The translations under genes were made by a program, and so were the position numbers. A model generated the notes under the pieces. That model searched no databases. It was not told the origin of the DNA and worked only from the letters and a program-made list of their open reading frames with translations. A stretch of 42,368 nt of DNA, taken from IMG/VR virus record IMGVR_UViG_3300036826_000094, positions 1 through 42,368 of that record; one strand, given 5' to 3'. The stretch is from a virus. This document shows, one piece after another, positions 661 to 41,325 of the stretch (positions are counted from its first letter, which is position 1; every line of letters begins with the position of its first letter).

Positions 661-2937
661 ATGCCGTTCGACTTCCCGTCGTCGCCCTCGACCGGACAGC
701 AGGTCACCACGCCGGGCGGCACTTATGCGTGGGACGGCGTCAAATGGACCGCCTACGGCTCGGGGCCGTTTCTGCCGCTCACCGGCGGGGTAATGACCGG
801 AGCGGTGACCCTGGCGAGCGGCTCCACCGCGCCGACACCGGCTCCTGGTGATAACACGCAGCAGATCGCTACCACCGCGTTTCTGACGGGCAACTATCTG
901 GCACTTGCCGGCGGCACGGTGACAGGGGCGACAACGTTTAATGGCGGCGTGACGGTGCAGGGTGCTCCAGCGTTGCACGTCAGTGGAGCGGCGGGAGCCT
1001 ATCGCACGCTGCGCTTTGAGACGGCCGGCTCGGCACGGTTCAGCTTTGGCCTGGATAACACGGCCGAAAGCGGTGGTAACGCGGGCAGCAACTTTATCGT
1101 GTCATCGTCTGATGACACAGGTGCGGTGCTGAATAATCAGTTTCTTTCGATCAACCGGCTCACCGGTAGAACCACATTCCAGAAACCCGTCGTATTCAAC
1201 GCCAGTATGGGAACCACGTTCGGGCCGGGAAACACCAACGGCATCTGGCAGCAGGCCAATTTTTCGGGGGCGATTACAAACAGCCCGCTGGCGGCATTTA
1301 ACCAGTGGACAGTTCCGAGTGATAATATGGCCTATACAGGCCAGGGTCTGTTCCTGGATGGTCTGTTCTACAATTTCGGTGGTTCGAACTTTTCGGGTAA
1401 TCGCGGCGGTCTGTTGATCCTGATGACGCAGACCGGCCCGGCTGGGGGATTATCTGGCAATGGCGGCATGGTTTGCGGCCAGTTCGGTTGCGTAGTCAAT
1501 AATACCCTCGGCGGATCGGCCGCTGCCTACAAGGGCGGCATATTCGGACTGAATATTTACAACCGCATAGCGGCCACTTCTCAGTTCGTCGACGGATCGG
1601 TTGGCATTGAGGTTGACATTGAGAGTAACGCCGGCTCGACCTACCTGACGCAAACGGGCATCTCTGTTGTTGCCACGACCGGCCATAAACAGACGCCGGT
1701 TGCGTTTTCGAGCGGCTACGTGCTCGCTGGACAGACCAGCTCAATTGGCATTGATCTCGGCGTGCTGGTGAACAGTTGGGGACTGCACGCCAACAGTACG
1801 TTCATCATGGCGGACTGGGCCAACGACCATCCTGCGTTCCCGATCAGTCGTGGCATTGATCTGCGCGCCATGACTTTTTCCAGCGATGCGTTTTCGACAG
1901 GCGCGTTCGCTATTACCTCAGGCAATGGGGCACGCATCGGCACCGGCACCATCGACCCGACCCCCACAGGGATGAGCGTTCACGTTGACGGAGCGATCTG
2001 CACAGCAGGCACGCTCACCGGGACAGTGACGACAGCTTATGCGCTGGATGGGAACCACTATTGGCTGGACGACGCTTACGGAGGGGTTTGGGAAATTGGT
2101 TATAGCGGGGCTGGCAGCACATCAATTACCTCCATCGTTCAGACTGTGCGTGGCTATGCACAGACACCGCCAGCCAATCCCGTCACGCTGACACCCAGGG
2201 GACAACTCAAGAGATTTGTCCCAGGGCCGATCACGGCCAACCTGACCTGGGACACCTCGCGCACCGCGCTGTCGGTGCAGCCGTCCGGTGGTGCGACCAC
2301 GTTTGGCGGCCCGGTGACACTCGCGGCTGACCCGGCCACGAGCATGCAGCCAGTAACGCTGCAATACTACAATGCGCATCTGCCGACATCATTGTCGCCA
2401 TCAGGGACAGCCGGTGGCGAGCTTAGCGGGACCTATCCCAACCCGGTGCTTGCCGCGACCGCTGTTGGCGCCGGCAGCTATACCTACGCTTCGCTGACGG
2501 TGGATGCCAAAGGCAGGTTGACCGCAGCATCGAGTGGCGCTGCGCCGTTATTGCTGACCGGCGGGACGGTTACAGGTAATCTGGCCGTGGCCGGCACTGG
2601 CACGTTTACGGGTGGAGTAACCGGCCCATTAACGGTTGGCATTGCTGGCCAGGCAGACCTTATCATTACTCCTGGTCCGGCTACGTCTAATGCCGTCACC
2701 ATATCCTCGTCTGGAACGGGTGGCATCACCATTGCTGGTGTTCCCATCGCCAGCGGGGCTATCGGTGCTGTGCAGTTCAACAGCACGGCGCGCTTCAACG
2801 GCACGGTTGGTTTCAACAACACCGCGCCGATTGCCAAACCTACCGTATCCGGTGCCAAAGGCTCGAACGCAGCGCTCGCCAGCCTGCTCACCGCGCTGGC
2901 GAATTACGGTCTGATCACCGATAGCAGCTCGGCATGA
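661..2937 (+). CDS. Tail fibre / tailspike-like protein
   Basis: This 758-aa protein starts MPFDFPSSPSTGQQ and continues with a GGTYAWDGVKW segment, a common N-terminal virion-attachment module of phage fibres. Repeated fibre motifs of the type LTGGxMTGAxTL occur near residues 38-50, 80-95 and 630-655. A segment LSGTYPNPVLA followed by VDAKGRLTAASSG near residue 600 is also characteristic of fibre shafts. The central 400 residues are Gly, Ser and Thr rich with no recognised enzymatic motif. The protein most likely contributes to host recognition. It ends in an ATGA overlap with the next small gene. The family assignment as a fibre is confident; the receptor and fold are unknown. Confidence 0.8.
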   Translation: MPFDFPSSPSTGQQVTTPGGTYAWDGVKWTAYGSGPFLPLTGGVMTGAVTLASGSTAPTPAPGDNTQQIATTAFLTGNYLALAGGTVTGATTFNGGVTVQGAPALHVSGAAGAYRTLRFETAGSARFSFGLDNTAESGGNAGSNFIVSSSDDTGAVLNNQFLSINRLTGRTTFQKPVVFNASMGTTFGPGNTNGIWQQANFSGAITNSPLAAFNQWTVPSDNMAYTGQGLFLDGLFYNFGGSNFSGNRGGLLILMTQTGPAGGLSGNGGMVCGQFGCVVNNTLGGSAAAYKGGIFGLNIYNRIAATSQFVDGSVGIEVDIESNAGSTYLTQTGISVVATTGHKQTPVAFSSGYVLAGQTSSIGIDLGVLVNSWGLHANSTFIMADWANDHPAFPISRGIDLRAMTFSSDAFSTGAFAITSGNGARIGTGTIDPTPTGMSVHVDGAICTAGTLTGTVTTAYALDGNHYWLDDAYGGVWEIGYSGAGSTSITSIVQTVRGYAQTPPANPVTLTPRGQLKRFVPGPITANLTWDTSRTALSVQPSGGATTFGGPVTLAADPATSMQPVTLQYYNAHLPTSLSPSGTAGGELSGTYPNPVLAATAVGAGSYTYASLTVDAKGRLTAASSGAAPLLLTGGTVTGNLAVAGTGTFTGGVTGPLTVGIAGQADLIITPGPATSNAVTISSSGTGGITIAGVPIASGAIGAVQFNSTARFNGTVGFNNTAPIAKPTVSGAKGSNAALASLLTALANYGLITDSSSA

Positions 2938-3125
2938 GAGGGCAAATGCAACCATTTGAACCAGCGGCAGTGATCACCATCGCGCTTGAGGCGCAGCAGT
3001 GGAATTTAGTGCTGGCTGCATTAGGTGAAGCACCATACCGCGTATCTGCGCCGCTGATCGCGGCAATCACTCAGCAGGCGACGCGCGGCGTTACCGCTAA
3101 CCAGCCCGCGACAGACTCCGAATAA
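2934..3125 (+). CDS. Small hypothetical protein following the fibre gene
   Basis: A 63-aa ORF overlaps the stop of the fibre gene by four bases (ATGA) and is followed one base later by the next start, which is strong operon-style spacing. An alternative start four codons in (MQPFEPAAV) is possible. The protein is Ala, Gln and Ile rich with a predicted helical middle part. There is no recognised domain. It could be a small fibre-associated protein or chaperone, but that is inferred only from its position. Confidence 0.6.
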   Translation: MRGQMQPFEPAAVITIALEAQQWNLVLAALGEAPYRVSAPLIAAITQQATRGVTANQPATDSE

Positions 3126-3126
3126 T

Positions 3127-3717
3127 ATGCAACAAACTCTGTATCTGCCCTATCTGCGCACCTCCCCGGTGCATATCCCGCGCCGCGACCTCGTGCTGTC
3201 AGCCGCCGACAGCCTGCTGCTGAGCGCCATCGTCGTCGAGAGCGACCATCCGAACGCGCAGACGCTGATCCTCACCACCGACGCTGACGGCCCATCAATG
3301 CAGCTCGTGATCTGGGACGACACCACATCGCCCGTCGGCAACCACGATTACGGCTGGCGCGCCCCCGCCGGGGCGATCCTGCAGTCCATTTCCGGCATCC
3401 CCGGCAACGCCTCCGGCTCGTGGGATTTCCATATCCCGACCGGCACCTTCTCCGCCGTTCCGCTGCGCTGTGGCTGGGCCATCCTGCTGTTGTGGGGCAA
3501 CAGCGCGAAGTCTGAGGTGCTGAGCCAGGGCATCATCAACATCCTGCGGCCGTTCTTCAAAGGCGTGCCGATCTCGGAGATCCCGCCGATCGAGACGCCG
3601 CCGATCATCCCGCCCGGCGCACCGTCGCTCCTGGGGCTCACCACCGACGACCTGCATCCGATCATCTGTTCCGACACGAGCGGCCCGAATACGGGGCTGC
3701 AACTGGAGACCTCGTAA
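3127..3717 (+). CDS. Putative virion structural protein
   Basis: A 196-aa protein between two fibre genes. It has a beta-rich N-terminal two thirds (several VIWDD and AILLLWG-type strands). A proline-rich stretch follows around residues 150-170 (PISEIPPIETPPIIPP), then a short C-terminal tail. It lacks transmembrane or catalytic motifs. Its stop overlaps the start of the next gene (TAATG), so the two are translationally coupled. It resembles small baseplate or fibre-linker proteins in architecture, but no family is firmly recognised. Confidence 0.6.
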   Translation: MQQTLYLPYLRTSPVHIPRRDLVLSAADSLLLSAIVVESDHPNAQTLILTTDADGPSMQLVIWDDTTSPVGNHDYGWRAPAGAILQSISGIPGNASGSWDFHIPTGTFSAVPLRCGWAILLLWGNSAKSEVLSQGIINILRPFFKGVPISEIPPIETPPIIPPGAPSLLGLTTDDLHPIICSDTSGPNTGLQLETS

Positions 3718-14153: not shown

Positions 14154-15203
14154 ATGAGCACCCTTCTCGTCGGCAAGGACAAGAAGTTCCAGACCATCGC
14201 CGCGGCCGTGGCGGCAGCGCAGGACGGCGACACCATCCGCGTCGATGGCGGCCGATATCTGAATGACTTTCCGCCGGTCATTCGCGTCTCGCTGAAATTC
14301 GAGGCGGTCGGATCGCGTGTCGTCATGGAGGCTGACAAACCTATACCCAACGGTAAAGGGTTGATCATCGCCGGCGGCACCAACACCAACCCAACGATAT
14401 CGTTCGATGCATTCGACTTCGTAGGTGCTCAGGTGCGCGACAAGAACGGCGCAGGAATTCGCTATCAGGCCGGCGACCTCACCTGCACCAACTGCGTCTT
14501 CCGCAATTGCCAGGACGGCATTCTCGCCACGCCGCTCATCAAGGGCATCGGCACCATCGTCATTGACCGCTGCGAGATCGACGGCTGCGGCGCAGGCGAT
14601 GGGCAATCGCACAATCTCTATATCGGTTTCATCAGCAATTTCGCGCTGACGAACAGCTATTCGCACGACTGTAAGGTCGGGCATCTCGTGAAGACGCGGG
14701 CGAAGACCTCAACGATCACCAATTGCCGGTTGTTCGATAACGGCCAGACAAGCAGCTACGCCGTCGACTGCCCGAACGCGGGCGACCTGTTCGTCTCGAA
14801 CTGCCAGATCCAGCAGGGCGCCAAAGGGCAGAATCCGTTCTTCTCGACCTACGGCGTGGGCGACAGTTCCAATCCGGGACGGACGGCGCACATCACGTCA
14901 TGCGTCGTCGTCAATGACGCGAAACAGGTCAAGCTGATGTATAACGCAGTGACGGACACGCCTGCGGTGTGGACCGACTGCCAGTTCTGGGGCGTGCCGG
15001 ACACGCTGGTGGCGCGCGGCAGGGGGCTGGTGACCGTCAACAACCCGACATGGCTCACCGCCCGGCCGTTGCTCGACATTGTGACGCCGCCCTACGGCCC
15101 TGTGGCTACGCACCGGGAAGAGCCGGATGTGGGCGAGGATGACGACGATTTCGAGCCGCCGCCCGACCAGCAGGACCCGGAGCCAGACGATGACACCTGT
15201 TGA
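14154..15203 (+). CDS. Right-handed beta-helix protein, pectate-lyase-like fold
   Basis: A 349-aa protein. It opens with the typical start of beta-helix proteins (LVGKDKKFQTIAAAVAAAQDGDTIRVDGG). About eight coils follow, with recurring short strands and Asn/Cys positions (CTNCVFRNCQDGI, IDRCEIDGCGAG, ITNCRLFDNGQ, VSNCQIQQGA). The end is an acidic, Pro-rich tail from about residue 320 (DVGEDDDDFEPPPDQQDPEPDDD). The fold is shared by pectate lyases and phage tailspike depolymerases. No signal peptide is seen. Its place outside the tail operon suggests an accessory gene. It may act on a surface polysaccharide; catalytic residues cannot be assigned. Confidence 0.75.
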   Translation: MSTLLVGKDKKFQTIAAAVAAAQDGDTIRVDGGRYLNDFPPVIRVSLKFEAVGSRVVMEADKPIPNGKGLIIAGGTNTNPTISFDAFDFVGAQVRDKNGAGIRYQAGDLTCTNCVFRNCQDGILATPLIKGIGTIVIDRCEIDGCGAGDGQSHNLYIGFISNFALTNSYSHDCKVGHLVKTRAKTSTITNCRLFDNGQTSSYAVDCPNAGDLFVSNCQIQQGAKGQNPFFSTYGVGDSSNPGRTAHITSCVVVNDAKQVKLMYNAVTDTPAVWTDCQFWGVPDTLVARGRGLVTVNNPTWLTARPLLDIVTPPYGPVATHREEPDVGEDDDDFEPPPDQQDPEPDDDTC

Positions 15204-16414: not shown

Positions 16415-16630
16415 TCACTGCGGTCTAATCACCGACGGCGCGCACGACACGCAGACCCGCATAGGCTCCCTCGGGACATCTGGCCGATGTTGCACCACGC
16501 AGCCGCACACACCGCACCGACCTCGCTGGTTATCGGGCAGGATCGGCGGATCCGACCACTCTACGCAGACAAGCACATCGGCCGTCGCCGCTTCTTCGCG
16601 TGACACGAACTGGATGCGAGGTCGCTTCAC
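16415..16630 (-). CDS. Small zinc-ribbon protein
   Basis: A 71-aa protein with a GTG start that overlaps the upstream stop by four bases (GTGA). The C-terminal half has CGVCGC and CVSC, spaced about 20 residues apart, as in a zinc ribbon, with RPDVPREP between. The N-terminal part is beta-rich (PRIQFVSREEAATADVLVCVEW). It is coupled to the 84-aa gene before it. The function is unknown. Confidence 0.65.
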   Translation of the reverse strand: MKRPRIQFVSREEAATADVLVCVEWSDPPILPDNQRGRCGVCGCVVQHRPDVPREPMRVCVSCAPSVIRPQ

Positions 16631-16881
16631 AGCGGGTCGATCCCGGCGTCCAGCGCCCGATCGAGCCAATCCTCAATATCCGCCCGCGTAGTGATCTCCT
16701 CGACCTGCGTGCGCAGCACATCGATCATCGGGCCTTGCCAGGGTCCCTGCATCCACTGCCGCAGATAGGCGCGCATCGCGGCGATCTGTCGCGGCGTCAG
16801 CGGCCTGCCGTTCAGGTAATCCTCGATCACCGGGCGCAGCACGCCGCTCGTTTCATGCGTCCAATAACCCGGTACTTCCAT
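16627..16881 (-). CDS. Conserved hypothetical protein, YLRQWM type
   Basis: An 84-aa protein starting MEVPGYWTHETSGVLRP. The helical core ALTPRQ-like segment PLTPRQIAAMRAYLRQWMQG and the end DRALDAGIDPL are recognisable as a small protein family common in alphaproteobacterial phages and prophages, with no known function. It diverges from the PEP-CTERM gene, with only 27 bases between the two starts, so any promoters must overlap. Confidence 0.7.
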   Translation of the reverse strand: MEVPGYWTHETSGVLRPVIEDYLNGRPLTPRQIAAMRAYLRQWMQGPWQGPMIDVLRTQVEEITTRADIEDWLDRALDAGIDPL

Positions 16882-16908: not shown

Positions 16909-17616
16909 ATGCGCCTGATCACCTCCCTTGCTGTCGCCGGGCTCGCCCTGACGGCAATTCCCGCCCACGCCACGCTGCAATTCGCTGCCAGCGCCAATGG
17001 CAGCAGCTTCTTCTGCGCCGACAACACCGGCTGTGACCAGAACCCGACCGCTGGCATCTTGCAGATCGCCGACCAGACGATCGGCGGCGTCGAGGTTAAT
17101 GGCTCGATCTCTACCGCCTCCGCTGCCAGCGGCTTCAACCTGCTCAGCGTGTCGTCGCTCTCAGTCATCAACCACAACGGCAGTGCTGTGCCGATTGACG
17201 TGACAGTGGGCGCCACAGGCTTTGTTCCACCTGTCAACCACGTGCAAACGACCGGCTCGGGCACCTGGACGGAAGCGACGGGCTCGACGGTGACCTATAC
17301 GTGGTTTGACGATCCGCAGAACCGCCAGGGCGCCAATACCGCGGGCGATACGCCGGGCGATCTGGTGGACACGTTCACCAGCGCGGCGGCGAGCCCGCTG
17401 CAAAGCTTCGCGCACGACAACACCAGCCTGATTTCCGATCTGCTGCCGTTCGCGATGGCGCTCGATGCCTCGGGCACGCTGACGGCGGGCGGCGAGCTGC
17501 TGAACCGCGGCCAGGCCGAGATCAAGACCAACATCCCGGAGCCGGGCAGTCTCGCGGTGCTGGGCGTTGGCCTGCTTGGGCTGCTGGCGCTCCGGCGCAA
17601 GCGCGGAGGTGCGTAG
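16909..17616 (+). CDS. Secreted PEP-CTERM sorting-domain protein
   Basis: A 235-aa protein. A strong ribosome site (aaggag) precedes the ATG at 16909. Residues 1-21 are a classical signal peptide ending AIPAHA, followed by TLQF. The middle is a Ser/Thr/Asn-rich beta-type domain (SVSSLSVINHNGSAVPIDVTV) with one C-x5-C pair (FFCADNTGC). The C-terminus from residue 210 has PEP (PEPGSLAVLG), a hydrophobic helix (VGLLGLLAL) and a basic cluster RRKR: the complete PEP-CTERM tripartite signal recognised by exosortase in exopolysaccharide-making bacteria. It should be exported and processed by the host exosortase. Such a protein is unusual on a phage genome. It may alter the surface of a lysogen; that is inference. 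Confidence 0.88.
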   Translation: MRLITSLAVAGLALTAIPAHATLQFAASANGSSFFCADNTGCDQNPTAGILQIADQTIGGVEVNGSISTASAASGFNLLSVSSLSVINHNGSAVPIDVTVGATGFVPPVNHVQTTGSGTWTEATGSTVTYTWFDDPQNRQGANTAGDTPGDLVDTFTSAAASPLQSFAHDNTSLISDLLPFAMALDASGTLTAGGELLNRGQAEIKTNIPEPGSLAVLGVGLLGLLALRRKRGGA

Positions 17617-17873: not shown

Positions 17874-18284
17874 ATGGCCGCAGTCGAGATCACTCTCAGC
17901 GGCGTGCTGTACGACAAGCTCAGCCGCACCACGCAGCAGGTCGTGCTGATCGGCGATGCGTCGCTGACCGGCCTCGGTGTCGGCGGCGGCCCGATGCCAC
18001 CAGGGCAGGGTGGTGGACAGCCCCCTGGCATATGGGGAGGCCCGATTGATCCCTATCCGGGCCATGGGTTGCCTGGAGCGCCCGGCACCTGGCCGGGGCA
18101 GAACCCGCCGCATCCGGCGCATCCGATCGTCACGCCGCCCGAAGGCCCACCGAACGGCGGACAACCCCCCGACCCGCCGACCGCGGACAAGCCACCTCCC
18201 CCAGAAGGCGGCTGGGGGTGGATGGCGTCTGCCAGCCAGTGGGGATATTTTCTGGGACCGCAGCAAGCGCAGCCAAAGACCTGA
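17874..18284 (+). CDS. Gly/Pro-rich conserved phage protein
   Basis: A 136-aa protein with a strong ribosome site (aaaggag). The N-terminal 40 residues form a beta-type domain (VEITLSGVLYDKLSRTTQQ, VVLIGDASLTGLGVGGGPM). A long Pro/Gly-rich region follows (PGHGLPGAPGTWPGQNPPHP, PPEGPPNGGQPPDPP), ending in a Trp-rich segment (GGWGWMASASQWGYFLGP). The layout recurs in temperate phages of Alphaproteobacteria and Burkholderiales, without a known function. A surface or virion-decoration role is possible. Confidence 0.7.
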   Translation: MAAVEITLSGVLYDKLSRTTQQVVLIGDASLTGLGVGGGPMPPGQGGGQPPGIWGGPIDPYPGHGLPGAPGTWPGQNPPHPAHPIVTPPEGPPNGGQPPDPPTADKPPPPEGGWGWMASASQWGYFLGPQQAQPKT

Positions 18285-18293
18285 GAGGTGGTC

Positions 18294-18530
18294 GTGACAG
18301 GCCACTGGCTGCTGGCTGGTGGCCTGCTGCTGCTCACGCTGCACGGGCCGGACGGGCAGCTGTTCTACGTCAATCCACATGAAATCGTCGCGCTGCGTGC
18401 GCCACGCGGTGATGACCTCGGGCATTTCGCGCGCGGCACGCGCTGCATCCTGTCCACGGTGGACGGGCACTTCATCCCGGTCCGGGAAGACTGCGAGGAC
18501 GTGCGCAACCGCCTCGAGGTGCGACCATGA
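18294..18530 (+). CDS. Small conserved protein with hydrophobic N-terminus
   Basis: A 78-aa protein. The GTG at 18294 is chosen because gagagg lies about six bases upstream; a GTG two codons earlier is possible. A hydrophobic N-terminus (WLLAGGLLLLTL) may be a signal or anchor. A compact domain follows, with GPDGQLFYVNPHEIVALR, HFARGTRCILSTVDGHFI and PVREDCEDVRNRL. The two Cys residues could form a disulfide if exported. The pattern is conserved in phages, function unknown. Its stop overlaps the next start (ATGA). Confidence 0.65.
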   Translation: MTGHWLLAGGLLLLTLHGPDGQLFYVNPHEIVALRAPRGDDLGHFARGTRCILSTVDGHFIPVREDCEDVRNRLEVRP

Positions 18531-22531: not shown

Positions 22532-22915
22532 TCAGGAGACGATCCGGCGACGATCCATTTCGTGGCGCTGGCTCTCTGGAACCTGGCTGAGCTCGGTTCC
22601 AACCTTCAAGAGTTCCCGGTAAATATCCTGCTGCCTTTTAGATAGACTGCGATACAGTATAACGAGGCTGATTTCGTGCGGATTATCAAGCACCAGCTGA
22701 TCGGCTGGTGTCGGTTCGCCGAGTAGTTCTGACGGCCGAATTCCCAAGACCCTGGCGACTTCCACCAGGTTCGATGTCTTAATGCCGCCTTTACCACCGC
22801 CCCCGCCTTCCCATTGCGCGACGGCGCTTTTATCGACGCCCAGAAGCGCCGCGAGGACGCGTTGCGTCAACCCCGCCTTGACACGCGCAGCACGAATCCG
22901 GTCGCCGATGTTCAC
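22532..22915 (-). CDS. CI-like HTH repressor
   Basis: A 127-aa protein if it begins at the GTG at 22915; longer in-frame starts up to 23020 would place coding over the operators. The N-terminus NIGDRIRAARVKAGLTQRVL, then LGVDKSAVAQWE and VEVARVLGIRPSELLG, is a canonical XRE helix-turn-helix. The C-terminal part (LVLDNPHEISLVILYRSLSK) is helical and lacks the LexA-type Ser-Lys peptidase, so induction is not by classical self-cleavage. An oddity is a run of Gly/Lys (EGGGGGKGG) inside the HTH domain. It is divergent from the Cro-like gene and flanked by operators on both sides. Confidence 0.8.
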   Translation of the reverse strand: MNIGDRIRAARVKAGLTQRVLAALLGVDKSAVAQWEGGGGGKGGIKTSNLVEVARVLGIRPSELLGEPTPADQLVLDNPHEISLVILYRSLSKRQQDIYRELLKVGTELSQVPESQRHEMDRRRIVS

Positions 22916-22939
22916 CGGGATAAAGTGGACTGCCCGCGG

Positions 22940-23000
22940 CTTATCCGCAGTCAGCAAAAAGCCGGGCGACGACTTGCGCTCATCGCTTAATACTGCTAAG
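22940..23000. promoter_or_regulatory. Right operators OR2 and OR1
   Basis: OR2 at 22940-22954 (cttatccgcagtcag) and OR1 at 22986-23000 (cttaatactgctaag) share CTTA-N7-TAAG with the sites at OL. OR1 overlaps the -10 of PR; OR2 lies closer to the repressor gene, where it could control repressor synthesis. Confidence 0.65.
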
Positions 23001-23002
23001 CC
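22974..23002 (+). promoter_or_regulatory. Putative PR promoter, leaderless
   Basis: TTGCGC (22974-22979), a 17-base spacer, then TAAGCC (22997-23002). The Cro-like ATG is at 23009, about where transcription would start, so the transcript would be leaderless. No ribosome site precedes that ATG, which agrees. OR1 lies over the spacer and -10. Confidence 0.55.
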
Positions 23003-23008
23003 AGTGGG

Positions 23009-23218
23009 ATGCGCGATCAATGCCTTGACCGCCTGATGCAGATCCGCGGCGCGACCAAGCGCCTGGCCAGGGAACTAGGCATCTCGACGGCTGCCGTCTC
23101 GCAGTGGGAGCGCGTGCCGCGCGACCGCGTGGTGGAAGTCGCTGCCATCCTGGGCGTCTCGCCCGAAGAACTGCGGCCTGATCTGTATCGCACAGAAGAA
23201 CCAGCGGAAGCCGCCTGA
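23009..23218 (+). CDS. Cro/YdaS-like HTH regulator
   Basis: A 69-aa protein with a compact helix-turn-helix: RGATKRLARELGISTAAVSQ followed by WERVPRDRVVEVAAILGVSP. This is the YdaS-like Cro type, where the second helix pair reads 'GISTAAVSQW'. It is divergent from the repressor and begins the rightward early operon. It would bind the CTTA-N7-TAAG sites and reduce repressor synthesis. No ribosome site is seen before the ATG, consistent with a leaderless message. YdaS homologues are also known as toxin-antitoxin-like prophage regulators, but a YdaT partner is not recognised. Confidence 0.75.
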   Translation: MRDQCLDRLMQIRGATKRLARELGISTAAVSQWERVPRDRVVEVAAILGVSPEELRPDLYRTEEPAEAA

Positions 23219-26635: not shown

Positions 26636-27469
26636 ATGAGGAATGAATCGGCGGAAGCCAGGGCCAGGCGACTGGCGGGACAAGCGCGGTGGCGCAAAGC
26701 TAATCCTGGGTATCACCAGAAATGGCGTAAGGCTCACCCCAAGGTCGAATCTAAGCTGGGACCGGACTATTACAGACAGTGGCGCAAAGCGCATCCTGGA
26801 TATTCCAGCAGATACAGCGAGAAGAATAAGGCGAGGAAGGCGCTTTGGCGTGCCAGCCCAGAAGGCAAGGCGGCTCAAGCCGCATTGCTGGCTAGTCCAG
26901 AATACAAAGCCAAATGGGCCGAGATACGTGCGACCCCGGAATACAAAGCCAAGTTGGCGGCCTATCGGGTAGCCAACCGTGGAAAAATCAAAGCTGGCAG
27001 AGCTGCTTACCTCGCCAGCCCAAAAGGCAAAGCATATAAAGAACGAGCTAAAGCAAAGAATCTGGCCTATCAGCTAAAGCCTGAGGTAAAGGCGGCGCGA
27101 AACCTTCGTAACAAGAAGCGCTATGCTGCCATTCATACAATAAACATTAGTCGCCGCATGTCGAGTGCGGTCCGTAGTTCTCTCCGAAGATATTCGGACA
27201 AGAATAAATCGTGGAACACTAAATGGATCGGTCTGGTCGGCTACACTGTTGCGGAGTTGTGCGCCCACATCGAACGGCAATTCCTGCCGAAAATGGGTTG
27301 GCACAACATGCCGAAATGGCATGTTGACCACATAGTCCCACTTGCATCGTTTCGCTACATATCGGAGACCGATCCAGAGTTCAAGGCGGCCTGGGCTTTG
27401 ACAAATCTGCGGCCCATCTGGGCTGCGCAGAACTTTAAAAAACACGCGCGGCGGGAGTTCTTGCTGTGA
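26636..27469 (+). CDS. HNH homing endonuclease with repeated DNA-binding units
   Basis: A 277-aa protein preceded by aaggggtg about seven bases before its ATG. Residues 20-160 contain repeated basic units (WRKANPGYHQKWRKAHP, ASPEYKAKWAEIRATPEYKA, LASPKGKAYKERAKAKN) that probably contact DNA. The C-terminal part is an HNH nuclease: GYTVAELCAHIERQF, WHVDHIVPLASFRY and FKAAWALTNLRPIWAAQN. It has noticeably more A and T than its neighbours, suggesting recent arrival. It sits directly before a dnaA-like gene, with its stop overlapping that gene's GTG. Confidence 0.82.
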   Translation: MRNESAEARARRLAGQARWRKANPGYHQKWRKAHPKVESKLGPDYYRQWRKAHPGYSSRYSEKNKARKALWRASPEGKAAQAALLASPEYKAKWAEIRATPEYKAKLAAYRVANRGKIKAGRAAYLASPKGKAYKERAKAKNLAYQLKPEVKAARNLRNKKRYAAIHTINISRRMSSAVRSSLRRYSDKNKSWNTKWIGLVGYTVAELCAHIERQFLPKMGWHNMPKWHVDHIVPLASFRYISETDPEFKAAWALTNLRPIWAAQNFKKHARREFLL

Positions 27470-27861
27470 GCCGCCGTCATGTGTGCGCCCACTCGCTGGG
27501 CCTTTGGTGCCAGGAAGTCTGGGCGTATCCGGTGTCTCCAAAAATCGCCGTTATCCAGGCCGCCGTAGGCGCCCGCTGGCGCGTCTCGGTCGCCGACCTG
27601 CAGTCGCGCCGGCAGAGCCGGGCGGTGGTCTGCCCGCGCCACGTCGCGATGTGGCTCGCCCGGCATCTGACGCCGGCATCCCTGCCCGAGATCGGGCGCG
27701 CATTCGGCGACCGCGACCACACCACGGTGATGCACGCGCTGGCGCGCATCGATCAGCGCATGGCCGAGAGCCCGCTGTTCGAGGGCGTGGTGCTGGACTT
27801 GGCGGAGCAGCTTTCACCCATAGCCGGCGCCGAGCAGCGCGCCATCAGGAGGGCGGCATGA
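27466..27861 (+). CDS. DnaA domain-IV-like DNA-binding protein
   Basis: A 131-aa protein if it begins at the GTG overlapping the HNH stop; a GTG at 27532 (109 aa) may be the original start. The sequence RVSVADLQSRRQSRAVVCPR, HVAMWLARHLTPASLPEIGR and AFGDRDHTTVMHALARI reproduces the C-terminal DnaA domain, including the DHTT signature that contacts DnaA boxes. No AAA+ domain is present. Such short proteins occur in phages beside replication initiators and could bind origin DNA or compete with host DnaA. It overlaps the next gene (ATGA). Confidence 0.78.
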   Translation: MSRRHVCAHSLGLWCQEVWAYPVSPKIAVIQAAVGARWRVSVADLQSRRQSRAVVCPRHVAMWLARHLTPASLPEIGRAFGDRDHTTVMHALARIDQRMAESPLFEGVVLDLAEQLSPIAGAEQRAIRRAA

Positions 27862-29586: not shown

Positions 29587-30168
29587 ATGCTTGACAGCCT
29601 CGCAATCCCGCGATCAGATACCGATTCCCCAGGGGACTCGTTCTCTGCGGAGAACGAACTCCCTCGCGGATGCTATTGGGCCGTCGCCTACACCCACAGC
29701 CAGTCAGAACGCTGGGCCGAGGCCAATCTCCGCAATCGCGGTTACAAAACATACCTCCCGCTCACCACCGTCCGCCGCCCCGACCGCGTGGTGAAATCCA
29801 TCATCCGCCGCGTCGAAATCCCACTCTTCCCGCGCTACCTGTTCGTCGTCACCGACGGCCACTGGACCCCCATCCAGCACACCCTCGGCGTCCACCACCT
29901 CATCATGGCCGAGCCCGGCAAACCCGGCATCGTCGCTAGCCCGGTTTTAAGCGCGCTACAGGCCGCCCTCGCCGAGGCCGCTACCCAACACCAGAAAACG
30001 CCCGCACCCGCCTCAGGCGCCTCCGTATGCCTCGCACGCGGGCCTTTCGCCGGCAGCCACGCCGTCGTCCTCTCAACCCACCGCGACACCGCCAGACTCG
30101 CCGTTATGATCCTCGGCGGCCTGCGCACCCTCTCCGCACCCCTCAAGTGGCTCACTCTCCGTGAATGA
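29587..30168 (+). CDS. NusG-like transcription factor
   Basis: A 193-aa protein. The N-terminal domain has the NusG (NGN) pattern: YWAVAYTHSQSERWAEANLR, NRGYKTYLPLTTVRR, RVEIPLFPRYLFVVTDGHW and LGVHHLIMAEPGKP. The C-terminal part (ASVCLARGPFAGSHAVVLST, ARLAVMILGGLRTL) corresponds to a KOW-type barrel. NusG and RfaH relatives ride on RNA polymerase and control pausing and termination. Its place just before the late packaging genes suggests a phage antiterminator. Its end overlaps the methylase start. Confidence 0.78.
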   Translation: MLDSLAIPRSDTDSPGDSFSAENELPRGCYWAVAYTHSQSERWAEANLRNRGYKTYLPLTTVRRPDRVVKSIIRRVEIPLFPRYLFVVTDGHWTPIQHTLGVHHLIMAEPGKPGIVASPVLSALQAALAEAATQHQKTPAPASGASVCLARGPFAGSHAVVLSTHRDTARLAVMILGGLRTLSAPLKWLTLRE

Positions 30169-40374: not shown

Positions 40375-41325
40375 GTGGCGGTTTCCGTTGCGACAATCGC
40401 TGAAAGAGCGTTGCGCCGGCTCGGCGTGGCCGTGGTGCCGGTTGCCGACCGGCCGGCGCTCAACACCGCAGTTTCGCCAGCCTCCATCGCCACCAATGCG
40501 CTGATCGAGCTCGGGATCATCGCCACCGGGCAGGTGCCGCTAACCCAGGCAACGGTGGTCACGTCCGACGCCATCGCCACGCTGGCGCTGGTCAAGCTCG
40601 GCGTCATCGCCGCCGACGAAACACCGTCCACGTCCGACATGACGCTGGCACAGAACGCGGTCGCTGCGGTGCACGCAAACCTGGTCGCGCAGGGCAACGT
40701 GGACTGGACCAGCGATGCGATCACCAGCGCGGTCAGTGAGGAATACGCCGCGCTGACCGCGCTGCATCTGGCTTCGTCGTTCGGGAGACCCGCCGACCCG
40801 GCGATGCTGCCGGTCATGGAGCAGCGCATCGCCACCGTCGCGCGCCTGATCCGGGCGCAGACCCTGGCGCTGACCAAGGTGCAGGAGGTGCAAGCCTCGC
40901 TCGCCTCGCAGGCCAACGTCTCATGGGATAATACCGGCATCCCGACCGCGGTCGCCGAGGAATACACACGACTGACCGCGATGGCGCTGGCTTCAAGCTT
41001 CGGCAAGCAGGTCGATCCGCAGATGCTTGCGGTGTGGGAAGCGCGGGTGCGGCGCATGGCGCAGATCCTCGAGGCGCCCAATTCGGCCAACGATGCCGTG
41101 CAGGCGGTGCACGATGCGCTGGTCGCGCGCGGGCTGGCGCGGTGGTCCGTCTATGACATCGCGCCGGCTGCCGAGCTGCCTTACGAGATGCTGGCGGCCA
41201 ACCGGCTCGCGCCGCTGTTCGACAAGCAGCCCGACCCGAACGCCGACCTCCTGGCCAGCCGGACGCTCGCGCAGATCATCGCGCTGGGAAGCTCCGGTGA
41301 GCGCACTCAGGCGGAATACTTCTGA
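40375..41325 (+). CDS. Head-tail adaptor (P22 gp4-like) with internal repeats
   Basis: A 316-aa protein starting at GTG directly after the previous stop. Three N-terminal elements read IAERALRRLGV, IATNALIELGI and IATLALVKLGV, the motif of phage head-completion adaptors. After that, three ~65-residue repeats align: VHANLVAQGNVDWTSDAI...LHLASSFGRPADP, VQASLASQANVSWDNTGI...MALASSFGKQVDP and VHDALVARGLARWSVYDI...NRLAPLFDKQPDP. Each has a Trp and an LxxxFxxxxDP end. gp4 of P22 forms a ring below the portal; this protein is longer through repetition. The assignment to that role is inferred from motif and place. Confidence 0.7.
   Translation: MAVSVATIAERALRRLGVAVVPVADRPALNTAVSPASIATNALIELGIIATGQVPLTQATVVTSDAIATLALVKLGVIAADETPSTSDMTLAQNAVAAVHANLVAQGNVDWTSDAITSAVSEEYAALTALHLASSFGRPADPAMLPVMEQRIATVARLIRAQTLALTKVQEVQASLASQANVSWDNTGIPTAVAEEYTRLTAMALASSFGKQVDPQMLAVWEARVRRMAQILEAPNSANDAVQAVHDALVARGLARWSVYDIAPAAELPYEMLAANRLAPLFDKQPDPNADLLASRTLAQIIALGSSGERTQAEYF

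Follow-up and report, generated by a model that had tools for sequence, protein, structure and literature searches.

Why should a phage carry the gene of a protein that looks made for a surface-sorting system of its host? The question is raised by positions 16,909 to 17,616 of a viral record of 42,368 nucleotides (IMG/VR record IMGVR_UViG_3300036826_000094), the whole of which is referred to here as the window. PEP-CTERM proteins and the exosortase tie the cell surface to the exopolysaccharide (EPS), and for this system it is established that proteins exported by Sec are anchored by their tail, processed by exosortase and delivered to the surface or the EPS (PMC12188702; PMC9012009). The system is linked with exopolysaccharide, biofilm and floc formation, and its substrates are largely obscure.

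The gene (16,909..17,616, + strand) is an open reading frame of 235 codons plus a stop. It starts with ATG and has an AAGGAG ribosome site a few bases 5' of the start, just as the preliminary description had it. With the help of Pfam/TIGRFAM, AlphaFold2 and a family alignment of 65 members (A4), the product of 235 aa was divided into a signal peptide (residues 1-21), a jelly-roll body (22-208) and a PEP-CTERM tail (209-232). The signal peptide, MRLITSLAVAGLALTAIPAHA (16,909..16,971, +), begins with MRLIT, continues into a hydrophobic core and ends in a signal peptidase I site, read from the sequence, between AHA and TLQ. The alanine before the cut, A21, is kept in 65/65 family members and A19 in 62/65. 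The mature body contains 23% Ser+Thr and has cysteines at 36 and 42. A search around the gene gave no sigma-70-like promoter, and the terminator-like matches behind it include none that is clear.

The tail, PEPGSLAVLGVGLLGLLALRRKRGGA, consists of the PEP motif, a hydrophobic helix and RRKR (17,533..17,601, +). The window protein scores 29.4 bits with PF07589 (E 7.8e-7; Pfam cut-off 20.7) and 21.3 with TIGR02595 (TIGRFAM cut-off 16). In a six-frame search of the whole record, the PF07589 match reached E = 2.7e-9, with matches in 0/14 control genomes, so it is not due to chance. Judged by these profiles, the product is a PEP-CTERM protein whose exosortase-type sorting signal is intact; the complete tail and the signal peptide reported earlier both stand. 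The best NCBIfam match is PepA (NF033554); membership was rejected, as the match has 33 bits against a cut-off of 80 and is confined to the last ~53 residues. For the body, no NCBIfam PEP-CTERM subfamily scored above cut-off, either with the window protein or with L047, a central member of its family.

The gene was also said to stand divergent from its small neighbours. Upstream this is true: an 84-aa gene (16,627..16,881, -) points the other way, and its start codon and that of the PEP-CTERM gene lie 27 bp apart. Downstream, a gene for a Pro-rich protein, called PGIWGG here (17,874..18,284, +), is co-oriented with the PEP-CTERM gene, so the divergence holds on one side only. The pair is followed by a small gene of 80 aa (18,288..18,530, +), the product of which has homologues in L014, L018 and G006/G008 (41-55% identity, tblastn); its weak FlbD-like match (E 0.025) is below the cut-off. 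Upstream of the cassette, at 14,154-15,203, lies a gene for a right-handed beta-helix protein of 349 aa, possibly surface or depolymerase-like.

The next point is whether the gene belongs to the phage at all. The record ends in a 127-bp direct terminal repeat and encodes the terminase large subunit, portal, major capsid protein and ejection proteins, along with a RecT-type annealing protein and a ParB-methyltransferase. The end repeat, together with the terminase, portal and capsid, makes it a complete phage genome, and the PEP-CTERM gene is therefore phage-borne. Contamination with host DNA was considered and ruled out by the end repeat, the completeness of the genome and the status of the entry as an IMG/VR virus record; nowhere does the contig run into host DNA. 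Among its other genes are one for a protein with a DnaA DNA-binding domain (27,466-27,861; PF08299, E 3e-25) and one for a NusG-like antiterminator (29,587-30,168; phrog_6386). There was no match to Rfam or to an anti-phage defence profile.

The protein is not a solitary one. The first search of viral contigs gave one homologue, and patterns placed outside the tail gave 14 viral loci. In this tail-independent set, all 12 further records matched PF07589 at E <= 0.001, and ten of them exceeded the cut-off. A 13-member profile with two patterns matched 191 viral stretches, part of which were inspected, and 80 loci were kept; the firm count is these 80. Most of the 65 members of A4 share 25-50% identity with the window protein. 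A21, P210, E211 and G219 are invariant in 65/65, and Cys36/Cys42 are kept in 59 of 65. The invariance of the PE pair is partly ascertained, since one of the two search patterns contains the PEP motif. Such constancy of the PE pair and the signal peptidase site among sequences this divergent indicates that selection acts on the export and sorting signals, and dN/dS values of 0.08-0.46 in close pairs show purifying selection at the sequence level.

Phage PEP-CTERM proteins are still more diverse than this. A motif search of phage genomes, which the preliminary description had suggested, found the DNA pattern PEPxTW[A/V]M in at least 120 viral stretches, and only 18/82 ORFs among the matches listed belong by body profile to the family of the window protein (P0001). 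The PEP-CTERM tail occurs on at least nine bodies that are distinct by BLAST; the protein of L005, for example, has the tail alone in common with the P0001 family.

Outside environmental viruses, 84,980 prokaryote genomes were scanned twice by pattern, at a sensitivity of ~40% per member, and no member was found. The second pattern matches 32/80 of the known viral members, so absence of the family from bacteria is likely on these scans but not proven. By tblastn, neither P0001 nor L047 matched any of 50,697 phage records, nor did L047 match any of 72,556 plasmid records. PF07589 was found in 0/8 cultured relatives. A 46-aa tail query gave nothing among cultured phages; this query is insensitive, as it detected one plasmid only, at E 9, from Sphingomonas and with a similar PEPxxWA-CTERM tail. 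Relatives are spread over scores of environmental phages that are not otherwise related, and none was found in sequenced bacterial genomes, so phages seem to have a lasting family of their own that borrows the host exosortase pathway. The view of the gene as an unusual cargo is not supported in that form: it is recurrent and phage-maintained in environmental viruses, though absent from cultured phages. An exosortase was sought in 56 records, window included, and none was found, so the window protein would depend on the enzyme of the host.

These results also bear on the idea that a bacterial gene was captured recently, or host DNA mis-binned, and that the gene has no role in the phage. The tail type is otherwise bacterial, and the Sphingomonas plasmid is a case in point. 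Nevertheless, the gene lies in a complete phage genome with an end repeat, its family counts at least 80 phage loci and shows purifying selection, and no full-length homologue was seen in the prokaryote genomes at the above sensitivity of 32/80. We regard recent capture as very improbable.

The fold of the protein was examined next. With 65 sequences, AlphaFold2 predicted a beta domain at 24-207 and a helix at 212-232 (pLDDT 90.6, pTM 0.81). A search of solved chains with the protein sequence gave nothing significant (best E 0.16). When the predicted structure was compared by VIA-align, the closest structure was SGBP-B (Z 10.0, rmsd 3.4, 133 aligned), followed by Bd1399 (Z 9.6), the K2-2 tailspike (9.3) and CBM61 (8.6); a Z of 10 is modestly over the background of 7-8 stated for the tool. 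The nearest structures thus include proteins that bind glycans (SGBP-B, CBM61 and the tailspike domain). Jelly rolls are widespread, however, and glycan binding is put forward here as a hypothesis.

Comparison with complete relatives shows how the gene behaves in phage genomes. G083 and G086 are complete genomes with 127-bp end repeats like that of the window, to which they are 75-76% identical in the terminase (TerL 76% for G083 and 75% for G086), 76-78% in the capsid and 60-63% in the portal. In the window, the PEP-CTERM gene is flanked by the ejection module on one side and a cytosine methyltransferase on the other. In G083, its homologue (43% identity) lies at 40,385-41,083 in the tail-fibre region, with a PGIWGG-type gene adjoining it across the record ends, while in G086 both genes are absent. 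Moved in one close relative and missing in the other, the gene is accessory and variable in position, as a moron is.

The PGIWGG gene is a recurrent partner. It is found in 19 viral loci (L003-L021), and PF07589 was above the cut-off in 6/19 of the PGIWGG records searched, window included. Across 64 family loci, PGIWGG-type ORFs cluster near the PEP gene: 128 kb-windows no farther than 1 kb from it held 14 of them, and 200 such windows at 3-5 kb held none (Fisher p 1e-6, the ORF test being a crude regular expression). The protein carries a 'PPGIWGG/HPAHPI' motif and a conserved N-terminus, MAAVEITLSGVLYDK...GLGVGGGPMPP, and is common to phages with unrelated packaging genes. It has no match in Pfam, NCBIfam or PHROGs. 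A search for it in TerL relatives, run without a positive control, was negative; tblastn matches it in G083 at 35%. The PEP-CTERM gene thus moves as an accessory cassette, often with the PGIWGG gene.

Around the family genes, 64 loci showed a portal in 20, a terminase in 17, an SNF2-type helicase in 13 and an M15 endolysin in 9, and a second, different PEP-CTERM gene adjoins in 12 of the 64. Several phages carry two PEP-CTERM genes, and tandem second genes of other families occur at L067:5736-6533, L073:5134-5820 and L087:5773-6546, among others. In L007, a phage of low third-position GC, a PEP-CTERM-like gene lies inside the head gene region (2534-3199), with the PGIWGG gene downstream; the record yields no PF07589 match at E <= 0.001.

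Neighbours such as portal, terminase and endolysin, as well as the likeness to the C-terminal domain of a tailspike, would suit a virion or lysis protein, the jelly roll working in the particle or in envelope disruption and the tail serving as a mere membrane anchor. For a core structural or lysis gene, however, the position varies too much, and the complete G086 does without it. Further, virion proteins of tailed phages would not be expected to carry a Sec signal peptide, and the conservation of the PEP motif exceeds the needs of an anchor. A part in the virion or in lysis is considered improbable.

The question then arises as to when in infection the gene would be used. The preliminary description likened it to a lysogenic-conversion gene, expressed from the prophage and altering how the lysogen adheres or forms flocs. 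Its own ribosome site and divergent start agree with this, as does a repressor-like HTH in the window (22,532-23,020). A tyrosine integrase is present in 11/56 records searched (55 PEP-CTERM carriers and G086), the close relative G083 among them. In L211, L243 and L270, the identifiers of which look, we infer, like IMG isolate-genome numbers, a PEP-CTERM gene is reversed among capsid, tail or lysis genes, the classic position of a moron, and an integrase is present in one of these records. The window itself, on the other hand, has no tyrosine integrase, nor was any integrase matched among its proteins scanned with Pfam and PHROGs (part of the ORFs), and the majority of carriers are without one.

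A podophage clade of 14 contigs, the best-sampled clade and one collected by its terminase, points in the same direction. A complete PEP-CTERM gene is present in 12/14, the thirteenth contig (L176) is cut inside one, and none was seen in G103. In this clade, the gene sits between terminase and portal and on their strand, a position that points to lytic-phase expression and so speaks against lysogenic conversion as the only role. At this site, four contigs have a different body, while signal peptide and tail stay. In L174, L175, L176 and L179, it is a second phage PEP-CTERM family (TLQIEVFDNG...) that replaces the first. Going by their gene content, temperate and apparently non-integrating phages both carry such genes, so 'lysogenic conversion' is too narrow a term; as the sole account of the gene it is unlikely, and what stands of it are the HTH, the integrase of G083 and the reversed genes. 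As for the hosts, the nearest cultured capsid and portal relatives of the window are Pseudanabaena phages (38-39% identity), too distant for host assignment, and the capsid, portal or terminase relatives of the podophage clade (Ochrobactrum/Sinorhizobium/Rhizobium) are not decisive.

The explanation that fits best, and which we hold to be rather likely, is that of an accessory moron which displays its body on the surface via the host exosortase, probably shielding or altering glycans. The protein would be produced during infection (or in a lysogen) and directed by its signal peptide into the Sec pathway, and the PEP-CTERM helix would hold it in the inner membrane. The host exosortase would then recognise it, remove the tail and release the jelly-roll body towards the cell exterior and the exopolysaccharide layer. 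There, the CBM-like body would probably bind a surface or capsular glycan and alter or shield it. A cell shielded in this way may exclude further phages, and the progeny may be spared loss on kin cells or debris, a role functionally akin to that of a lytic- or lysogenic-conversion surface protein. Of these steps, export through the host exosortase is considered quite likely. Modification or shielding of surface glycans is the most likely function, but as a specific claim it is held tentatively.

A wider proposal, on which we are evenly divided, is that many environmental phages keep diversified exosortase substrates of their own, exchange them in cassettes along with a Pro-rich partner gene, and depend on the sorting route of the host to remodel its surface glycans during infection. 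If it is true, exosortase is a host factor for phage fitness. A phage-specific, selected family of substrates would show that phages exploit the exosortase route, would offer small natural test substrates for the enzyme, and would connect infection with surface glycans and aggregation in environmental communities.

In the literature searched, where subscription journals and preprints are mostly outside coverage, no description of phage PEP-CTERM proteins was found. The known kinds are exosortase substrates and phage morons, and use of the host exosortase as a phage strategy is undescribed there. With the substrates of exosortase (EpsH, Xrt; PF07589, TIGR02595 and, for the PEPxxWA type, NF035944), the window protein shares the layout of signal peptide, variable body, PEP, helix and basic end; it differs in being encoded by a phage that has no exosortase. 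With the flocculation-associated PepA, the C-terminal region only is shared. To the CBM jelly rolls (CBM4/16/61, SGBP-B), the likeness of the body is one of predicted fold alone (Z 8-10); by sequence, none of the solved chains matched significantly. Lytic conversion of the T5 Llp type is an example of a moron or conversion surface protein of phages. Proteins of this type are likewise accessory, exported, mobile in position and kept by selection; they use a lipoprotein or plain membrane anchor, whereas the window protein would take the exosortase route of its host.
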